A DNA stretch of 64,000 nucleotides from the NCBI RefSeq assembly GCF_007997155.1, contig NZ_VORT01000002.1:124001-188000 (forward strand). The letters run 5' to 3'. The stretch is from Aequorivita antarctica (GTDB lineage: Bacteria; Bacteroidota; Bacteroidia; Flavobacteriales; Flavobacteriaceae). The notes beneath the pieces are model-generated. The model was given only the letters and a program-made list of their open reading frames with translations. It was not told the origin of the DNA and did not search any database. The translations under genes were made by a program, and so were the position numbers. This document shows positions 1,591-49,465 of this stretch, piece after piece. The number at the start of each line of letters is the position of its first letter. Position 1 is the stretch's first letter.

Positions 1591-2433
1591 TTATCTTGTG
1601 TATTCAAGGGTGTATTGTGAAGGGTCTCCGTAATACTCTTCGTTTACGTCTGTTGGATAACCTTCAGCGTCATACATATAGACGTATGAGGCTACTGCTA
1701 TAGTGTTTTCTTTGATAGCGGTAATGTTGTTCTTTTGAAAAGGGAAGCTATAGCCCTCCATTCCACTAACATAGATGCCATCAAACTCCCAAAAGAACTC
1801 TATGAAACGCTCAATATAAATGGATCTGAATTGGCCGTAAAACGGGTTTATTTTAGCGTCATAAGTTATGGTAAAGGCAGCTATTGGGTCGCTGTTATTG
1901 TCAAAAGATTCGGCACTCACCATATTTCCAATGTTGTCATACTGAAAGATTGTGTATTGGTTGGCTTCAGTAAATTTGGTGATTAGGCCGTCGCTGTTCA
2001 GCTCCAGTTGTACGGTTGCGTTTGCGTCCCCTTCAATGGTTCCGGTCAGCGTTACTTTGTTTGCGGAGTAGGTTAGGGTAACGTCTTCTGAAGGGCCAAT
2101 ATATTTTGAAAGGCGGCCTTGGGCGTCATAGGTGAAGTTTTGTTCGGAGTTTGAGGGAAATTGTCCTGTTTCTACTTCTTTCCACTTTGTTAGGTAGTTG
2201 CCTGTGTAGGTAAACGTTGACTCATAACCAAAATTTGGATAATTGCCTTTGGCTTTGGTTAAAATGTTTTCTATGTTGTATTCATAATCTATCTTTAGGT
2301 TTTCTGAGACTTTTTCGGTTTTTACGTATTTTCGGGTTTCCAATGGCTCGTCTGAGTTGTCATCGTCAGAGGAACAGGAGATTGATAATATGCTTATTAA
2401 AAGAGCAGTGAGGAGGAATCTGTTGTTTTTCAT
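1591..2433 (-). CDS. Lipoprotein with YD-like repeats
   Basis: Residues 1-20 are a lipoprotein signal with lipobox LSISC followed by SSDDDNSDEP, the usual Bacteroidota pattern with acidic residues that often marks surface-exposed lipoproteins. The 280-residue body contains degenerate YD/RHS-like strands such as FTYDAQGRLSKY, LNSDGLITKF and FQYDNIGNMVSAES, each a short beta-hairpin of the kind seen in DUF4595-type lipoproteins. This suggests a beta-rich extracytoplasmic protein; no enzymatic motif is visible. It is followed by a hairpin terminator at 1511-1548, so it probably forms its own transcript. Confidence 0.75.
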   Translation of the reverse strand: MKNNRFLLTALLISILSISCSSDDDNSDEPLETRKYVKTEKVSENLKIDYEYNIENILTKAKGNYPNFGYESTFTYTGNYLTKWKEVETGQFPSNSEQNFTYDAQGRLSKYIGPSEDVTLTYSANKVTLTGTIEGDANATVQLELNSDGLITKFTEANQYTIFQYDNIGNMVSAESFDNNSDPIAAFTITYDAKINPFYGQFRSIYIERFIEFFWEFDGIYVSGMEGYSFPFQKNNITAIKENTIAVASYVYMYDAEGYPTDVNEEYYGDPSQYTLEYTR

Positions 2434-7402: not shown

Positions 7403-7405
7403 TGC

Positions 7406-7724
7406 AGCAGGCCGCCTTATCGTCCCGAACTTGCTTCGGGGAGGAAAGTCCGGACACCATAGGGAAGCATAGCGGCTAACGGCCGTCGTCCTCCTTCGCT
7501 GAAGCTACGGAGGATAGGACAAGTGCAGCAGAAAGTATGTACAGGTAATGCTGTAGTGAAACCAGGTAAACTCTATGCGGTGAAATGCCACGTAAACCTG
7601 TGCTTGAGGGTTCCCGCCCGATGCAGGAGGGTAGGCAGATTGAGCGTTTTGGTAACGAAACGCCTAGATAAATGATAAGGATTCGTCTTTTTGATGGATA
7701 CAGAACCCGGCTTATAGGCCTGCT
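7406..7724 (+). ncRNA. rnpB: RNase P RNA (bacterial type A)
   Basis: The catalytic RNA that matures tRNA 5' ends. AGCAGGCC (7406-7413) and GGCCTGCT (7717-7724) form helix P1. The conserved core follows: GGAGGAAAGTCCGGACACC near 7440-7458, GTGAAACCAGGTAAACTC in the middle, GGGTTCCCGCCCGATG near 7609-7624, and ACAGAACCCGGCTTATA near 7700-7716. The P1 3' strand is followed by eight T residues, which should end transcription. Bases 7712-7724 also encode the last codons of the convergent minus-strand gene, an unusual shared use of P1. Confidence 0.95.
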
Positions 7725-8113
7725 TTTTTTTCTTCTTCTTCGGCTATTAACTTAGCGATCCACTGTTGTGCTTCCTCCAAACTTCTAAAAACACCAAAGG
7801 GCCAATTGTAGAAAGTTTTTTCGAAGTTTGCATTTTTGATACAATTTTCCGTGTAACAGACTATGGCAATACCAACCATTTTTGGATATCGTGTATTGTA
7901 GAGTTCAGGATTTAGATTTATGGCGTATTGCTTTATGCGATTGTCAATATATCCAAAATTTCCTTCGGAATAATATTCCGCAAAAACCTCGTGAAGAGCT
8001 GCAATGTGTTCTAATTCAATTAAAACGCCTTCTTCCACTGTTCCCACTACACAATGTTTTGATAGGTCCATGTGAACGAAACCTAAATCGATAGTTTTGT
8101 TTGTAAACGACAA
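7712..8113 (-). CDS. Hypothetical protein, possibly SpoIIAA/STAS-like
   Basis: A 133-residue soluble protein with no signal peptide. The alternation of beta and alpha segments (HCVVGTVEEGVLIELEHIAALHEVF, then PKMVGIAIVCYTEN, then WPFGVFRSLEEAQQWI) resembles the SpoIIAA-like/STAS fold found in many flavobacterial proteins of this length, but this is a fold guess. It is the last gene of a minus-strand run with rsmD (11-base gap). Its final codons, encoding KKAGL and the stop, overlap the 3' strand of RNase P helix P1, so the C-terminal sequence may be shaped by RNA pairing. Confidence 0.65.
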   Translation of the reverse strand: MSFTNKTIDLGFVHMDLSKHCVVGTVEEGVLIELEHIAALHEVFAEYYSEGNFGYIDNRIKQYAINLNPELYNTRYPKMVGIAIVCYTENCIKNANFEKTFYNWPFGVFRSLEEAQQWIAKLIAEEEEKKAGL

Positions 8114-37864: not shown

Positions 37865-38518
37865 ATGTTGAAAAAATTCCTTTTAGTTGGTTTTTTTGTA
37901 ATTACAGGAACTGTTTTTGCACAAATAGATTTGCCCAATAATTCCGTACGGTTTGATTCTCCACAATCTAATGTGGACAGTCCTACCGGATTTGAAATTC
38001 CAGCAATTAAAGCACCAACCCTTTCAAATACAAAGAACCCGAATACGCCCAACAATTCTAACTTGGGAAAAGAAAAAGAAAATCAAATTGATATGCAAAA
38101 TGGGGATGGCTTGCTGGAATATACAGGAACAAACAAAGCCCCAAAATACTTTACAAAAGATAAAGAAGAAAAACCTGAATACGGAAAAGACCAATATCTC
38201 GGCGATTTCAAGACCACGGCAAAAACTGCCACCATTATGTACCGCGACCACGAATTTGTGGATGGCGATATGATACGTGTTTATTTGAACGGAGAGGTTA
38301 TAATTCCACAAGCTAGACTGGAAGGCAGCTTTAGAGGGTTTGATTTTCCACTTCAGGATGGGTTCAATAAAATAGATTTTGAAGCATTAAATCAAGGCTC
38401 TTCAGGCCCCAACACTGCACAATTAAATATCTTCGATGAAATAGGTAACCTTCTCGCTTCTTATGAATGGAATCTTCTTACGGGAAATAAGGCTACTGCC
38501 ATATTAGTAAAGCAATAA
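37865..38518 (+). CDS. Secreted protein of unknown function
   Basis: The 217-residue protein has a signal peptide (MLKKFLLVGFFVITGTVFAQ). The next 80 residues are low-complexity and rich in Asn, Pro and Ser, followed by a compact beta domain: ATIMYRDHEFVDGDMIRVYLNGEVIIPQARLEGSFRGF and PNTAQLNIFDEIGNLLASYEW. This C-terminal domain looks like an immunoglobulin-like or jelly-roll fold, but I do not recognise a named family. It may be co-transcribed with the small protein upstream (87-base gap). Confidence 0.65.
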   Translation: MLKKFLLVGFFVITGTVFAQIDLPNNSVRFDSPQSNVDSPTGFEIPAIKAPTLSNTKNPNTPNNSNLGKEKENQIDMQNGDGLLEYTGTNKAPKYFTKDKEEKPEYGKDQYLGDFKTTAKTATIMYRDHEFVDGDMIRVYLNGEVIIPQARLEGSFRGFDFPLQDGFNKIDFEALNQGSSGPNTAQLNIFDEIGNLLASYEWNLLTGNKATAILVKQ

Positions 38519-43345: not shown

Positions 43346-43654
43346 ATGGCTTTAAGCAATAACGATATCATGAAAAAACTGCGAGTAGCACACAAACTCC
43401 GTGACGACGATATAGTGAAAATATGTTCGTTGGTGGATTTTGCAGTTACAAAAAGTGAACTTGGAGCTATCTTTAGAAATGAAAACCACGAAAAATATAT
43501 GGAATGTGGCGATCAGTTTCTTCGTAATTTTCTAAATGGATTAGTCATTCATCTGCGAGGGCCGATGCCGGAAAAGAAAGCGCAACCGCTAAAAGTATCA
43601 CCAAAAGCCAACCCGAGTCCACGTCCGAAATATAAACCAAATCTTAAAAAATAA
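43346..43654 (+). CDS. DUF1456 (YehS-like) protein, single repeat
   Basis: The 102-residue protein holds one DUF1456 unit: NNDIMKKLRVAHKLRDDDIVKICSLVDFAVTKSELGAIFRNENHEKYMECGDQFLRNFLNGL (about 5-66). E. coli YehS has two such units in about 156 residues, so this is a half-length form. The tail is rich in Lys and Pro (EKKAQPLKVSPKANPSPRPKYK) and may bind nucleic acid. The family function is unknown. It has its own promoter element and ends at a bidirectional hairpin (43656-43687). Confidence 0.85.
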   Translation: MALSNNDIMKKLRVAHKLRDDDIVKICSLVDFAVTKSELGAIFRNENHEKYMECGDQFLRNFLNGLVIHLRGPMPEKKAQPLKVSPKANPSPRPKYKPNLKK

Positions 43655-43655
43655 A

Positions 43656-43687
43656 AAAGCTGGATCAAATTTCTTCAATCCAGCTTT
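43656..43687. terminator. Bidirectional terminator at the mini-ORF cluster
   Basis: AAAGCTGGAT (43656-43665) pairs with ATCCAGCTTT (43678-43687). An A-run precedes the left arm, so on the minus strand the hairpin is followed by six T residues. It closes both the DUF1456 gene (plus) and the minus-strand unit of small ORFs, whose last stop is 21 bases away. Confidence 0.8.
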
Positions 43688-43707
43688 AGTAGTTTTCATT
43701 TTTATTT

Positions 43708-43842
43708 TTAATAGAAGTTTCTGCATGTTTTTCTGATTGTGGGTTCCTCAAACAGGCGTTGGTTTCCGTTTAGGTAATTCAACATGTTTTGCTTTTGCGA
43801 TCCGTATTTAATTCGCTTTTGAAGGTTTCTCAAGGTTTTCAT
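43708..43842 (-). CDS. Mini-ORF C, basic small protein (44 aa)
   Basis: The 44-residue product begins MKTLRNLQKRIKYGSQKQNM and ends TIRKTCRNFY. It is strongly basic and lacks a signal peptide or membrane helix. It shares only the M-[RK]-T-L start and the basic, aromatic-ending C-terminus with the two paralogous mini-ORFs upstream (43878-43964 and 43996-44082), so membership of the same family is uncertain. It is the last ORF before the terminator at 43656-43687. A 12-A tract lies six bases before its ATG. Function unknown. Confidence 0.45.
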   Translation of the reverse strand: MKTLRNLQKRIKYGSQKQNMLNYLNGNQRLFEEPTIRKTCRNFY

Positions 43843-43877
43843 AGTTAATTTTTTTTTTTTGGTTTGAGTGAGGGCAT

Positions 43878-43964
43878 TTATCTATAGCGCCTTTTTGTAT
43901 TCCATATATAAGCTCTGGAATCGTGTGGTCTGTGAATGCTTTCGTTGCTGTTTAATGTTCTCAT
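43878..43964 (-). CDS. Mini-ORF B, 28-residue basic paralogue
   Basis: The product starts MRTLNSNESIHRPHDSR and ends YIWNTKRRYR. Aligned without gaps to mini-ORF A (same length) it has 15 identical residues out of 28, including MRTLNSN at the start, S16, Y19, W21-N22, K24-R25-R26 and R28. Six of these identical residues use different codons (for example the Arg codons AGG-CGC-AGA against AGA-AGA-CGC), which points to selection on the peptide. No signal peptide or membrane helix is present. Function unknown. Confidence 0.6.
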   Translation of the reverse strand: MRTLNSNESIHRPHDSRAYIWNTKRRYR

Positions 43965-43995
43965 GATTTTTAAGTTTTAAATATTAATAATTTTT

Positions 43996-44082
43996 TTAGC
44001 GAAATCTTCTTTTCAAATTCCATGAATAGCCTTTTGAAGTTTTCATTTTTTCAGTCAAGTAATTGCTGTTTAAAGTTCTCAT
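43996..44082 (-). CDS. Mini-ORF A, 28-residue basic paralogue
   Basis: The product starts MRTLNSNYLTEKMKTSK and ends YSWNLKRRFR, with a net charge of about +7. It is the first of three minus-strand mini-ORFs in a region without larger genes. A TTACTTTG sequence near 44148-44155 (minus strand) could be a weak -7 element, giving a leader of about 60 bases. The paired evidence with mini-ORF B (equal length, conserved ends, synonymous codon changes) is the main reason to call it. Function unknown. Confidence 0.6.
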   Translation of the reverse strand: MRTLNSNYLTEKMKTSKGYSWNLKRRFR

Positions 44083-44259
44083 AATAAAATAGTTTTACTG
44101 GTTATACTTAAAAGACGCAATAGTTTTGTTTTTGTTACAGTACTATGTAATGCAAAGTAATGATTTAACTAAATATTAACCTTTTGTAAAAGAATTAACA
44201 GCAAAAAATCTTGCGTAAATGTTTAACATTCTATTAACCGTGAATCCTTTGCCAATTGG

Positions 44260-44321: not shown

Positions 44322-44936
44322 ATGGAGACTGTAAGAAAATCTGAAACCAATAAATTAAAGCGTGCCCATCTGTATTATAAATACACTGGGTTTTACTCTT
44401 TTGTGGGTCAAAGTCTTAAGAAATCTATTGTTCCAATAGTTTTGATTATTGTTGCACTCATCGTATTGGATCTTTACGTTGTAGATTTCAGTAATCTCTT
44501 TACATATATTACTGAAACCTACGCGCCAATTAACATATTGCTTGTTTTTCTTGCTTCGGAATCGTTATTGGGCCTTGTTCCTCCAGAAATATTTATTGCT
44601 TGGAGTGATAAAATGCCTGAGCCAATTCTTTATTTAACACTTTTGGCAACACTTTCTTATGTAGGCGGAATTATTTCTTACTTCATCGGGAAATGGATTT
44701 TTACGATTCCAAGGGTTTATGCATATATGGAAGGGAAGATGAAGAAACACCTAAAGCAAATACGCAAATGGGGTGGATTCTTAATTGTTGTTGGTGCTTT
44801 GTTGCCCATTCCGTTTTCTATGACTAGTATGGCCGCAGGAATGATTCATTATAAATTCAGTAACTATCTTCTTTTTGGATTGCTTCGTTTTGTGAGGTTT
44901 TATCTTTATGCCATTGCCATATTCAGTTTGCTATAG
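44322..44936 (+). CDS. VTT/DedA-like (YqaA-type) membrane protein
   Basis: The 204-residue protein has about five hydrophobic segments, with the VTT core GGIISYFIGKWIFTIPRVYAYMEGKMKKHLKQIRKWGGFLIVVGALLPIPFSMTSMAAGMIHY (about 127-188). The G-x-x-x-Y-x-x-G turn, the basic KxxRKWGG and the P-x-P-F motif match the YqaA/SNARE-associated group. DedA-like proteins help flip undecaprenyl phosphate or phosphatidylethanolamine-type lipids and keep membrane potential; which applies here is not known. The clean promoter upstream suggests a single-gene start of an operon with the MFS gene. Confidence 0.82.
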   Translation: METVRKSETNKLKRAHLYYKYTGFYSFVGQSLKKSIVPIVLIIVALIVLDLYVVDFSNLFTYITETYAPINILLVFLASESLLGLVPPEIFIAWSDKMPEPILYLTLLATLSYVGGIISYFIGKWIFTIPRVYAYMEGKMKKHLKQIRKWGGFLIVVGALLPIPFSMTSMAAGMIHYKFSNYLLFGLLRFVRFYLYAIAIFSLL

Positions 44937-48787: not shown

Positions 48788-49339
48788 TTATAAAGACGAT
48801 TCAATAATTCGGAAAGGATAGGCATCTTGCGTCTTTTTTAATTCATCGTCGGTGATTTTTTTCGCCTCCGTTTTTAATATTTCGGAAACATACTTTTCGC
48901 GTAATTCAAAATATGCGGAGGCTATTTGATCTTGAATAGAAATATAGCTTTGATACGGTGCTTCGCGATGAATGGATAAAGAAATTGAAGCTTTTTTCGG
49001 ATTATCTGAGGCTTCTGCAAGCCTTTCTCCGCTACAATAAATACAGGACTGGTCTGCATTGTTATCTAAAAAATGTTTTAATTCGTCTTTTAGATTTTCA
49101 ATTGGGGTAATTGTCTTATTCACCATAATTTCGCCTTTTTCATTGACGCTGATTGTAAAAATATTATTCTTTTTAAGTGGAATATTACAATCGGCACCGG
49201 GCGGACAAGGCTGCGGAAGATCGCGCGCAATTCCTTTATCATTCGGAATCATTGAGGTTACCAAAAAGAAAATTAGAAGTAGAAAAGCAATATCGGCCAT
49301 ACTGCCGGTATTCACGGTGGGCATAATTGAGTTTCTCAT
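48788..49339 (-). CDS. Biopolymer transporter ExbD-like protein
   Basis: The start at MRNSIMPTVNTGSMADIAFLL fits the flavobacterial ExbD N-terminus, giving 183 residues; a 17-codon upstream extension (ATG at 49390) lacks this look. One membrane helix (about residues 15-32, with D16 in SMADIAFLLLIFFLVTSM being the conserved proton-binding Asp) is followed by a periplasmic domain with an unusual CPPGADC stretch and QSCIYCSGE, four Cys that may form disulfides. ExbD works with ExbB and TonB, but neither is in the window, so this orphan copy may serve another complex. Confidence 0.82.
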   Translation of the reverse strand: MRNSIMPTVNTGSMADIAFLLLIFFLVTSMIPNDKGIARDLPQPCPPGADCNIPLKKNNIFTISVNEKGEIMVNKTITPIENLKDELKHFLDNNADQSCIYCSGERLAEASDNPKKASISLSIHREAPYQSYISIQDQIASAYFELREKYVSEILKTEAKKITDDELKKTQDAYPFRIIESSL

Positions 49340-49465
49340 AATTGAAAATGGTTTAAGGTTCTCTCTTTCACAAATCAAAGAAAGTGCCATAAGTTTATTT
49401 CTTAAACCAGACAGCTGTTTCGTAAGAAAACAGTAATTTTAAAATGTTGAGAAATTCACTATTTA

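Follow-up and report, generated by a model that had tools for sequence, protein, structure and literature searches.

Arrays of basic micro-protein genes in Aequorivita antarctica and other Flavobacteriaceae, with a putative ECF sigma and PadR control region

A stretch of 64,000 nucleotides from the 3.84-Mb genome of Aequorivita antarctica, hereafter the window, holds three very small genes, A, B, and C, which almost certainly encode proteins. Comparison of related genomes gives good support both to their coding nature and to a conserved composite control region ahead of them, which combines an ECF-type promoter with a palindrome also found upstream of a padR operon elsewhere in the genome. From these comparisons we infer the type of sigma factor involved and PadR as the protein that binds the palindrome. 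Our best explanation, which we put slightly ahead of even, is that the genes form a micro-protein operon that would be jointly controlled by an ECF sigma factor and PadR and would serve envelope stress.

Three micro-protein genes in a probable transcription unit

The genes lie on the minus strand between two plus-strand genes, one encoding a DUF1456 protein (43346-43654) and the other a VTT-domain protein (44322-44936). A sequence-only reading of this DNA had proposed three open reading frames in a gap of 630 bases; the gap is in fact 667 bases, from the end at 43654 to the start at 44322, and all three frames are where it had placed them. Gene A (43996-44082) encodes 28 residues (MRTLNSN...WNLKRRFR) and gene B (43878-43964) another 28 (MRTLNSN...WNTKRRYR), stop codons included in the coordinates, while C (43708-43842) encodes 44 residues. 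As had been counted before, an ungapped alignment of A with B has identical residues at 15 of 28 positions, and at 6 of these 15 identities the codons differ synonymously. Chance resemblance was rejected, since 100,000 shuffles of B never gave more than 12 identities.

An intrinsic terminator on the minus strand (43656-43687), which also ends the convergent DUF1456 gene, closes the unit. The hairpin that had been noticed there is a 14-pair stem with a T-rich tail, 20 bases beyond the stop of C, and its fold together with its flanks is unusually stable (z of -5.75). Upstream of A, sequence comparison defined four elements on the minus strand: a GTTAA box (44165-44169), which lies 5 bases before the palindrome TACTTTGCATTACATAGTA (44141-44159), a candidate PadR operator; one base further on, the ECF-type -35 element TGTAAC (44134-44139); and, 16 bases after it, the ECF-type -10 element CGTCT (44113-44117). 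With a conserved promoter region at one end and the terminator at the other, A, B, and C appear to form a transcription unit of their own, as had been suggested. The earlier reading had missed that C represents a second conserved family, and it had missed the conserved promoter and operator and their link to the padR operon.

In a pooled pairwise Nei-Gojobori comparison of the genus sequences, the dN/dS values for A, B, and C were 0.18 (25 sequences), 0.21 (23 sequences), and 0.07 (21 of 24 sequences, with three divergent or shorter ones dropped), respectively; they are descriptive only, because the sequence pairs lack independence. All three genes are thus under purifying selection, with mostly synonymous substitutions, in line with the earlier suggestion that the peptides are what is conserved. 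Variation across the genus was lower in the genes (0.16, 0.20, and 0.19) than in the spacers between them (0.34 and 0.44), and the third codon position was the most variable. Among 145 distinct start regions, the base A stood at position -3 in 96% and at positions -11 to -13 in 91 to 97%. A study of Flavobacterium johnsoniae reports that A at -3, -12, and -13 promotes initiation (PMC6847099), and the A/B starts match this published translation signal. The gaps between successive genes were distributed over the three frames (30, 29, and 24 of 83), which argues that each copy is its own gene.

A structure model of C (mean pLDDT of 76) predicted one helix, residues 4 to 26, and a low-confidence tail. 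Elsewhere in the window, the only Rfam match at the gathering threshold was the class A RNase P RNA (7404-7730, plus strand). The window also contains an ExbD gene (48788-49390, minus strand) and a gene (37865-38518, plus strand) whose product, of unknown family, has a signal-like start. By eye, genes similar to these two lie beside arrays in several other genera, and of the 80 named loci, 9 have an ExbD-type motif in the flank of the array.

Distribution and features of the family

The sequence-only reading had named the presence of homologous frames in relatives, free of internal stops, among the tests of its claim, and both outcomes favored it. With A as the query, matches at an E of ≤1 were obtained in 46 of 118 relatives, several of the weakest being partial and probably due to chance. 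They included 26 of the 28 genus genomes, with the window's own counted and G014 and G023 without a match. Internal stops were absent from the listed full-length matches and occurred in a single partial match, from a genome of another family. Across the genus loci, the gene order A-B-C and the flanking genes were mostly kept. An A/B profile built from 27 rows matched 103 of 299 Flavobacteriaceae genomes, from 81 of 236 genera. The same profile matched 12 of 395 order-wide genomes, two of them probably by chance, and a single genome in a class-wide sample of 295, which was the window's own. Among the order-wide matches, those in G144 and G322, partial and with an E near 0.01, were taken as chance.

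Among the named genomes, 381 stretches matched the search pattern and 302 of them encoded a relative, from which the best 80 were kept as array loci. These come from Aequorivita, Aquimarina, Ulvibacter, Altibacter, Xanthomarina, Hyunsoonleella, Algibacter, and other genera. Copy number in these best 80 of 302 loci was one in 23 arrays, two in 37, three in 14, four in 5, and five in 1. When C candidates were defined as frames of 41 to 48 residues starting with M[RK][TSA] and lying ≤250 bases past the last A/B copy, 41 of the 80 arrays had one, not all of which need be homologous. Since a C profile at an E of 0.01 matched just 9 of 30 array-bearing genomes (four in the genus and two weak and partial), C is a patchier or faster-changing companion of the A/B arrays.

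The A/B peptides are mostly of one length (28 residues in 144 of 163 peptides, 29 in 13, 31 in 1, and 33 in 5) and strongly basic, with a net charge of +4 to +9 and a mean of +6.1 over 139 distinct peptides. Fixed ends, MRTL[ND][SN]NQ and WNxKRR[YF][RK], enclose a short variable middle. Among the distinct peptides of 28 residues, M1, T3, W21, R25, and R26 never vary, and R2, N7, N22, and K24 are conserved at ≥98%. In one genome, the B copy at approximately 1617-1700 (plus strand) of locus L011 starts with TTG in place of ATG and is otherwise intact. Three loci (L098, L112, and L143) encode single-copy relatives with the longer end WNSKRRHKRLSTN and have neither the ECF-type promoter nor the palindrome. 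By eye, a TANNTTTG-like stretch lies upstream, and it may be that the housekeeping sigma factor controls this branch.

Profile searches of Pfam, NCBIfam, and PHROGs with A, B, and C gave nothing over the cut-off. The best match of all, that of C to DUF7740, had an E of 0.16 and was rejected because its 12.6 bits fell below the cut-off of 28. A search for relatives of solved structure returned one match at chance level (E of 0.13). The earlier statement that the motif belongs to no described family holds for these three collections and for a peptide-word search of open-licence papers, and a search of the open-licence literature with small-protein terms found no paper that combined them. A phage origin was also rejected, because 75 pattern matches in viral contigs yielded no confirmed relative and PHROGs gave no match. 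With neither a known domain nor a solved relative, any proposal on function rests on charge and regulation only.

A composite control region and a palindrome in common with the padR operon

Each of the 25 genus loci read has TGTAAC followed after 16 bases by CGTC. Of the 80 named loci, 68 have the pattern [TC]GTAAC-N15-17-CGTC ≤320 bases upstream of the array, and the spacer was 16 in every one of the 69 pattern matches. One of the 68, L129, carries the CGTAAC variant and has no palindrome. Twelve arrays lack the full promoter element; six of these keep the palindrome and have a changed -10 element, and in the other six the palindrome is absent too. The palindrome itself occurs with 0 to 2 mismatches in 73 of the 80 arrays (the other seven have 6 mismatches), directly followed by TGTAAC in all 73.

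The TGTAAC-N16-CGTCT pattern resembles an ECF-sigma promoter, and from its conservation we consider it very probably one, although a search of open-licence literature for such elements found none. In the window's own genome, TGTAAC-N15-17-CGTCT had 10 matches versus 6 for the reversed pattern, a weak excess. The spacer was 16 in eight of the ten, an ORF started within about 115 bases downstream of eight, and two fell within long open frames. Downstream of the eight were the array, an ECF-like sigma-70-family gene, and six further genes with Pfam matches: CarboxypepD_reg, MacB, DUF6702, DUF3108, beta-lactamase-like, and a weak Porph_ging. The site at the DUF3108 gene overlaps a hairpin and may be due to chance. 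The sigma-70-family gene, read as a 160-residue piece, matched Sigma70_r2 over the cut-off and Sigma70_ECF just below it. It carries a similar promoter element of its own with a 17-base spacer, which as a possible sign of ECF dependence is suggestive only.

A degenerate palindrome pattern with ≤1 mismatch matched only the array site in the window's genome. We then ran a second pattern, drawn to leave out most arrays, on 149 family genomes; it matched in 14, and its reversed control matched in none. Eleven of the 14 sites precede a DUF4870-like gene, and the other three a receptor-like gene, an operon for an ABC transporter, and an array. DUF4870 was confirmed with Pfam in one of the 11 loci and in the window's genome and was assigned by eye in the others. 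A PadR-like gene follows the DUF4870-like gene in all seven loci read further, and in five of the seven a PspC-like gene can be seen to begin after it. The window's genome has one PadR match, in an operon of DUF4870, a small ORF, PadR, and PspC, with a palindrome site upstream at 2 mismatches.

A search by protein found 80 padR loci, and all of the best 30, which were read, have a palindrome site at 1 to 3 mismatches; at least two of them are from array-less genomes (G039 and G040). Base-shuffled upstream DNA from padR loci gave 4 to 6 mismatches. Upstream of the Flavobacteriaceae DUF4870-PadR-PspC operon, a GTTAA-like box accompanies the palindrome as in the arrays. The two differ in what follows: at the padR loci the palindrome lies just ahead of a TATATTTG element, presumably a housekeeping-type promoter, whereas the arrays have ECF-type elements instead. 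At the padR operon the palindrome would be expected to be a site of repression, and adjoining the ECF-type -35 of the array it could act in repression or activation. A search of open-licence papers for PadR together with PspC found nothing related.

Taken together, these sites make PadR control of the array probable. The co-occurrence of arrays and PadR does not discriminate here, as PadR orthologues were present in all 80 genomes tested, including 20 picked for lack of arrays. A scan of the window's genome at ≤3 mismatches gave 6 forward and 6 reverse matches, against 3 and 1 for the reversed control, with six further places beside the array and the padR operon. Of five such places read (L187 to L191), at least three are inside or at unrelated genes. 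L187 (C64:66097) has a near relative of the palindrome just upstream of another operon, with one winged-helix-like and one CreD-like gene by name, which may point to another regulator whose operator is similar. Such a regulator could also bind the array palindrome.

Proposed circuit, alternatives, and meaning

We propose that A, B, and C are all translated and belong to a single transcription unit, which has a promoter and a terminator of its own. An ECF sigma factor that reads TGTAAC-N16-CGTCT is most likely required for its transcription, and the PadR-family regulator from the DUF4870-PadR-PspC operon at another locus most likely binds the palindrome beside the -35 element, such that the unit would be fully on only with both signals. 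The site in common with the padR operon is the ground for an envelope-stress role, the chances of which we judge to be even. That the peptides are strongly basic and carry a near-invariant W-N-x-K-R-R end points to a partner of negative charge, either membrane or RNA. Among such anionic surfaces, the inner side of the membrane under stress would be the likeliest, ahead of RNA, with array copy number contributing to peptide dose; we give binding to the membrane surface less than even odds, and the molecular target is a guess.

Alternatively, the peptides might act as small feedback regulators within this stress circuit, with the ECF sigma factor, the corresponding anti-sigma factor, or the membrane proteins PspC and DUF4870 as what they bind. 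The operator-like site in common with the padR operon would fit this, and fixed ends around a variable middle would suit a docking peptide. However, PadR also occurs in the 20 genomes tested that lack arrays, so that the circuit does not need the micro-proteins, and we regard such feedback as rather unlikely.

Cationic, Trp-containing peptides encoded in tandem could also be antimicrobial peptides or toxins of type I toxin-antitoxin systems, and tandem toxin genes such as Ibs-Sib exist. The net charge and the tandem copies favor this, as does a marine-biofilm Ribo-seq study, which reports 80,430 charged expressed sORFs, 15% of them from Flavobacteriaceae, and their screening as antimicrobial candidates (PMC11683478). 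That set may include A/B family members; its main text mentions neither Aequorivita nor Aquimarina. Against this, a hydrophobic stretch and a signal peptide are absent by eye, and the viral contigs held no confirmed relative, which leaves this explanation improbable. That short, repeated peptides with conserved ends are RiPP precursors matured by modifying enzymes is very doubtful, given that inspection by eye of the ORFs at 16 loci and Pfam on five window genes revealed no maturation enzyme and that the C-terminal end is among the best-conserved parts, unlike a variable core. We rejected as scarcely credible a regulatory or structured RNA with incidental short ORFs, which the short unit, strong terminator, and conserved control region might have suggested, on the basis of the dN/dS range of 0.07 to 0.21, the translation start signal, a fold of the transcript minus its terminator that was not unusual and no better than that of shuffles (z of 0.25), and an Rfam search at the locus that gave sub-threshold matches alone and none at the gathering threshold.

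Stress-induced small proteins of bacteria have fewer than 50 residues, are expressed from stress-type promoters, and are easily missed by gene callers. The A/B peptides are likewise short and easily missed and have a putative stress-type promoter, but they differ from such proteins in general in matching no family profile, in being basic, in lacking an evident membrane stretch, and in their tandem arrangement and fixed ends. For the joint control that we favor, there is a parallel in Listeria, where the sigC operon is reported to be under the combined control of the PadR-type LstR and the ECF factor sigma-C (PMC6624303). The likeness lies in one promoter on which a repressor of the PadR type and an ECF sigma factor act together. 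In contrast, the sigC operon encodes both regulators and a RodA/FtsW-like protein, while the array encodes micro-proteins in another phylum and its proposed regulators are encoded elsewhere. By analogy, we propose Listeria-type PadR and ECF logic for the array, with micro-proteins as the output.

It is conceivable, though we give it well under even chances, that copy-variable arrays for cationic micro-proteins, their ends fixed and their middles interchangeable, are the dedicated output of a two-signal PadR and ECF envelope-stress circuit in many marine Flavobacteriaceae. If so, this cationic output would be an intracellular peptide defense without a known counterpart. About a third of the sampled family genera (81 of 236) carry genes that are missing from Pfam, NCBIfam, and PHROGs. 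The fixed promoter geometry makes the circuit directly testable, and the arrays lend themselves naturally to testing how micro-proteins are translated in bacteria without Shine-Dalgarno signals. If the stress role is true, the arrays would represent an envelope-stress output in a group for which this circuit is undescribed in the open-licence papers searched.
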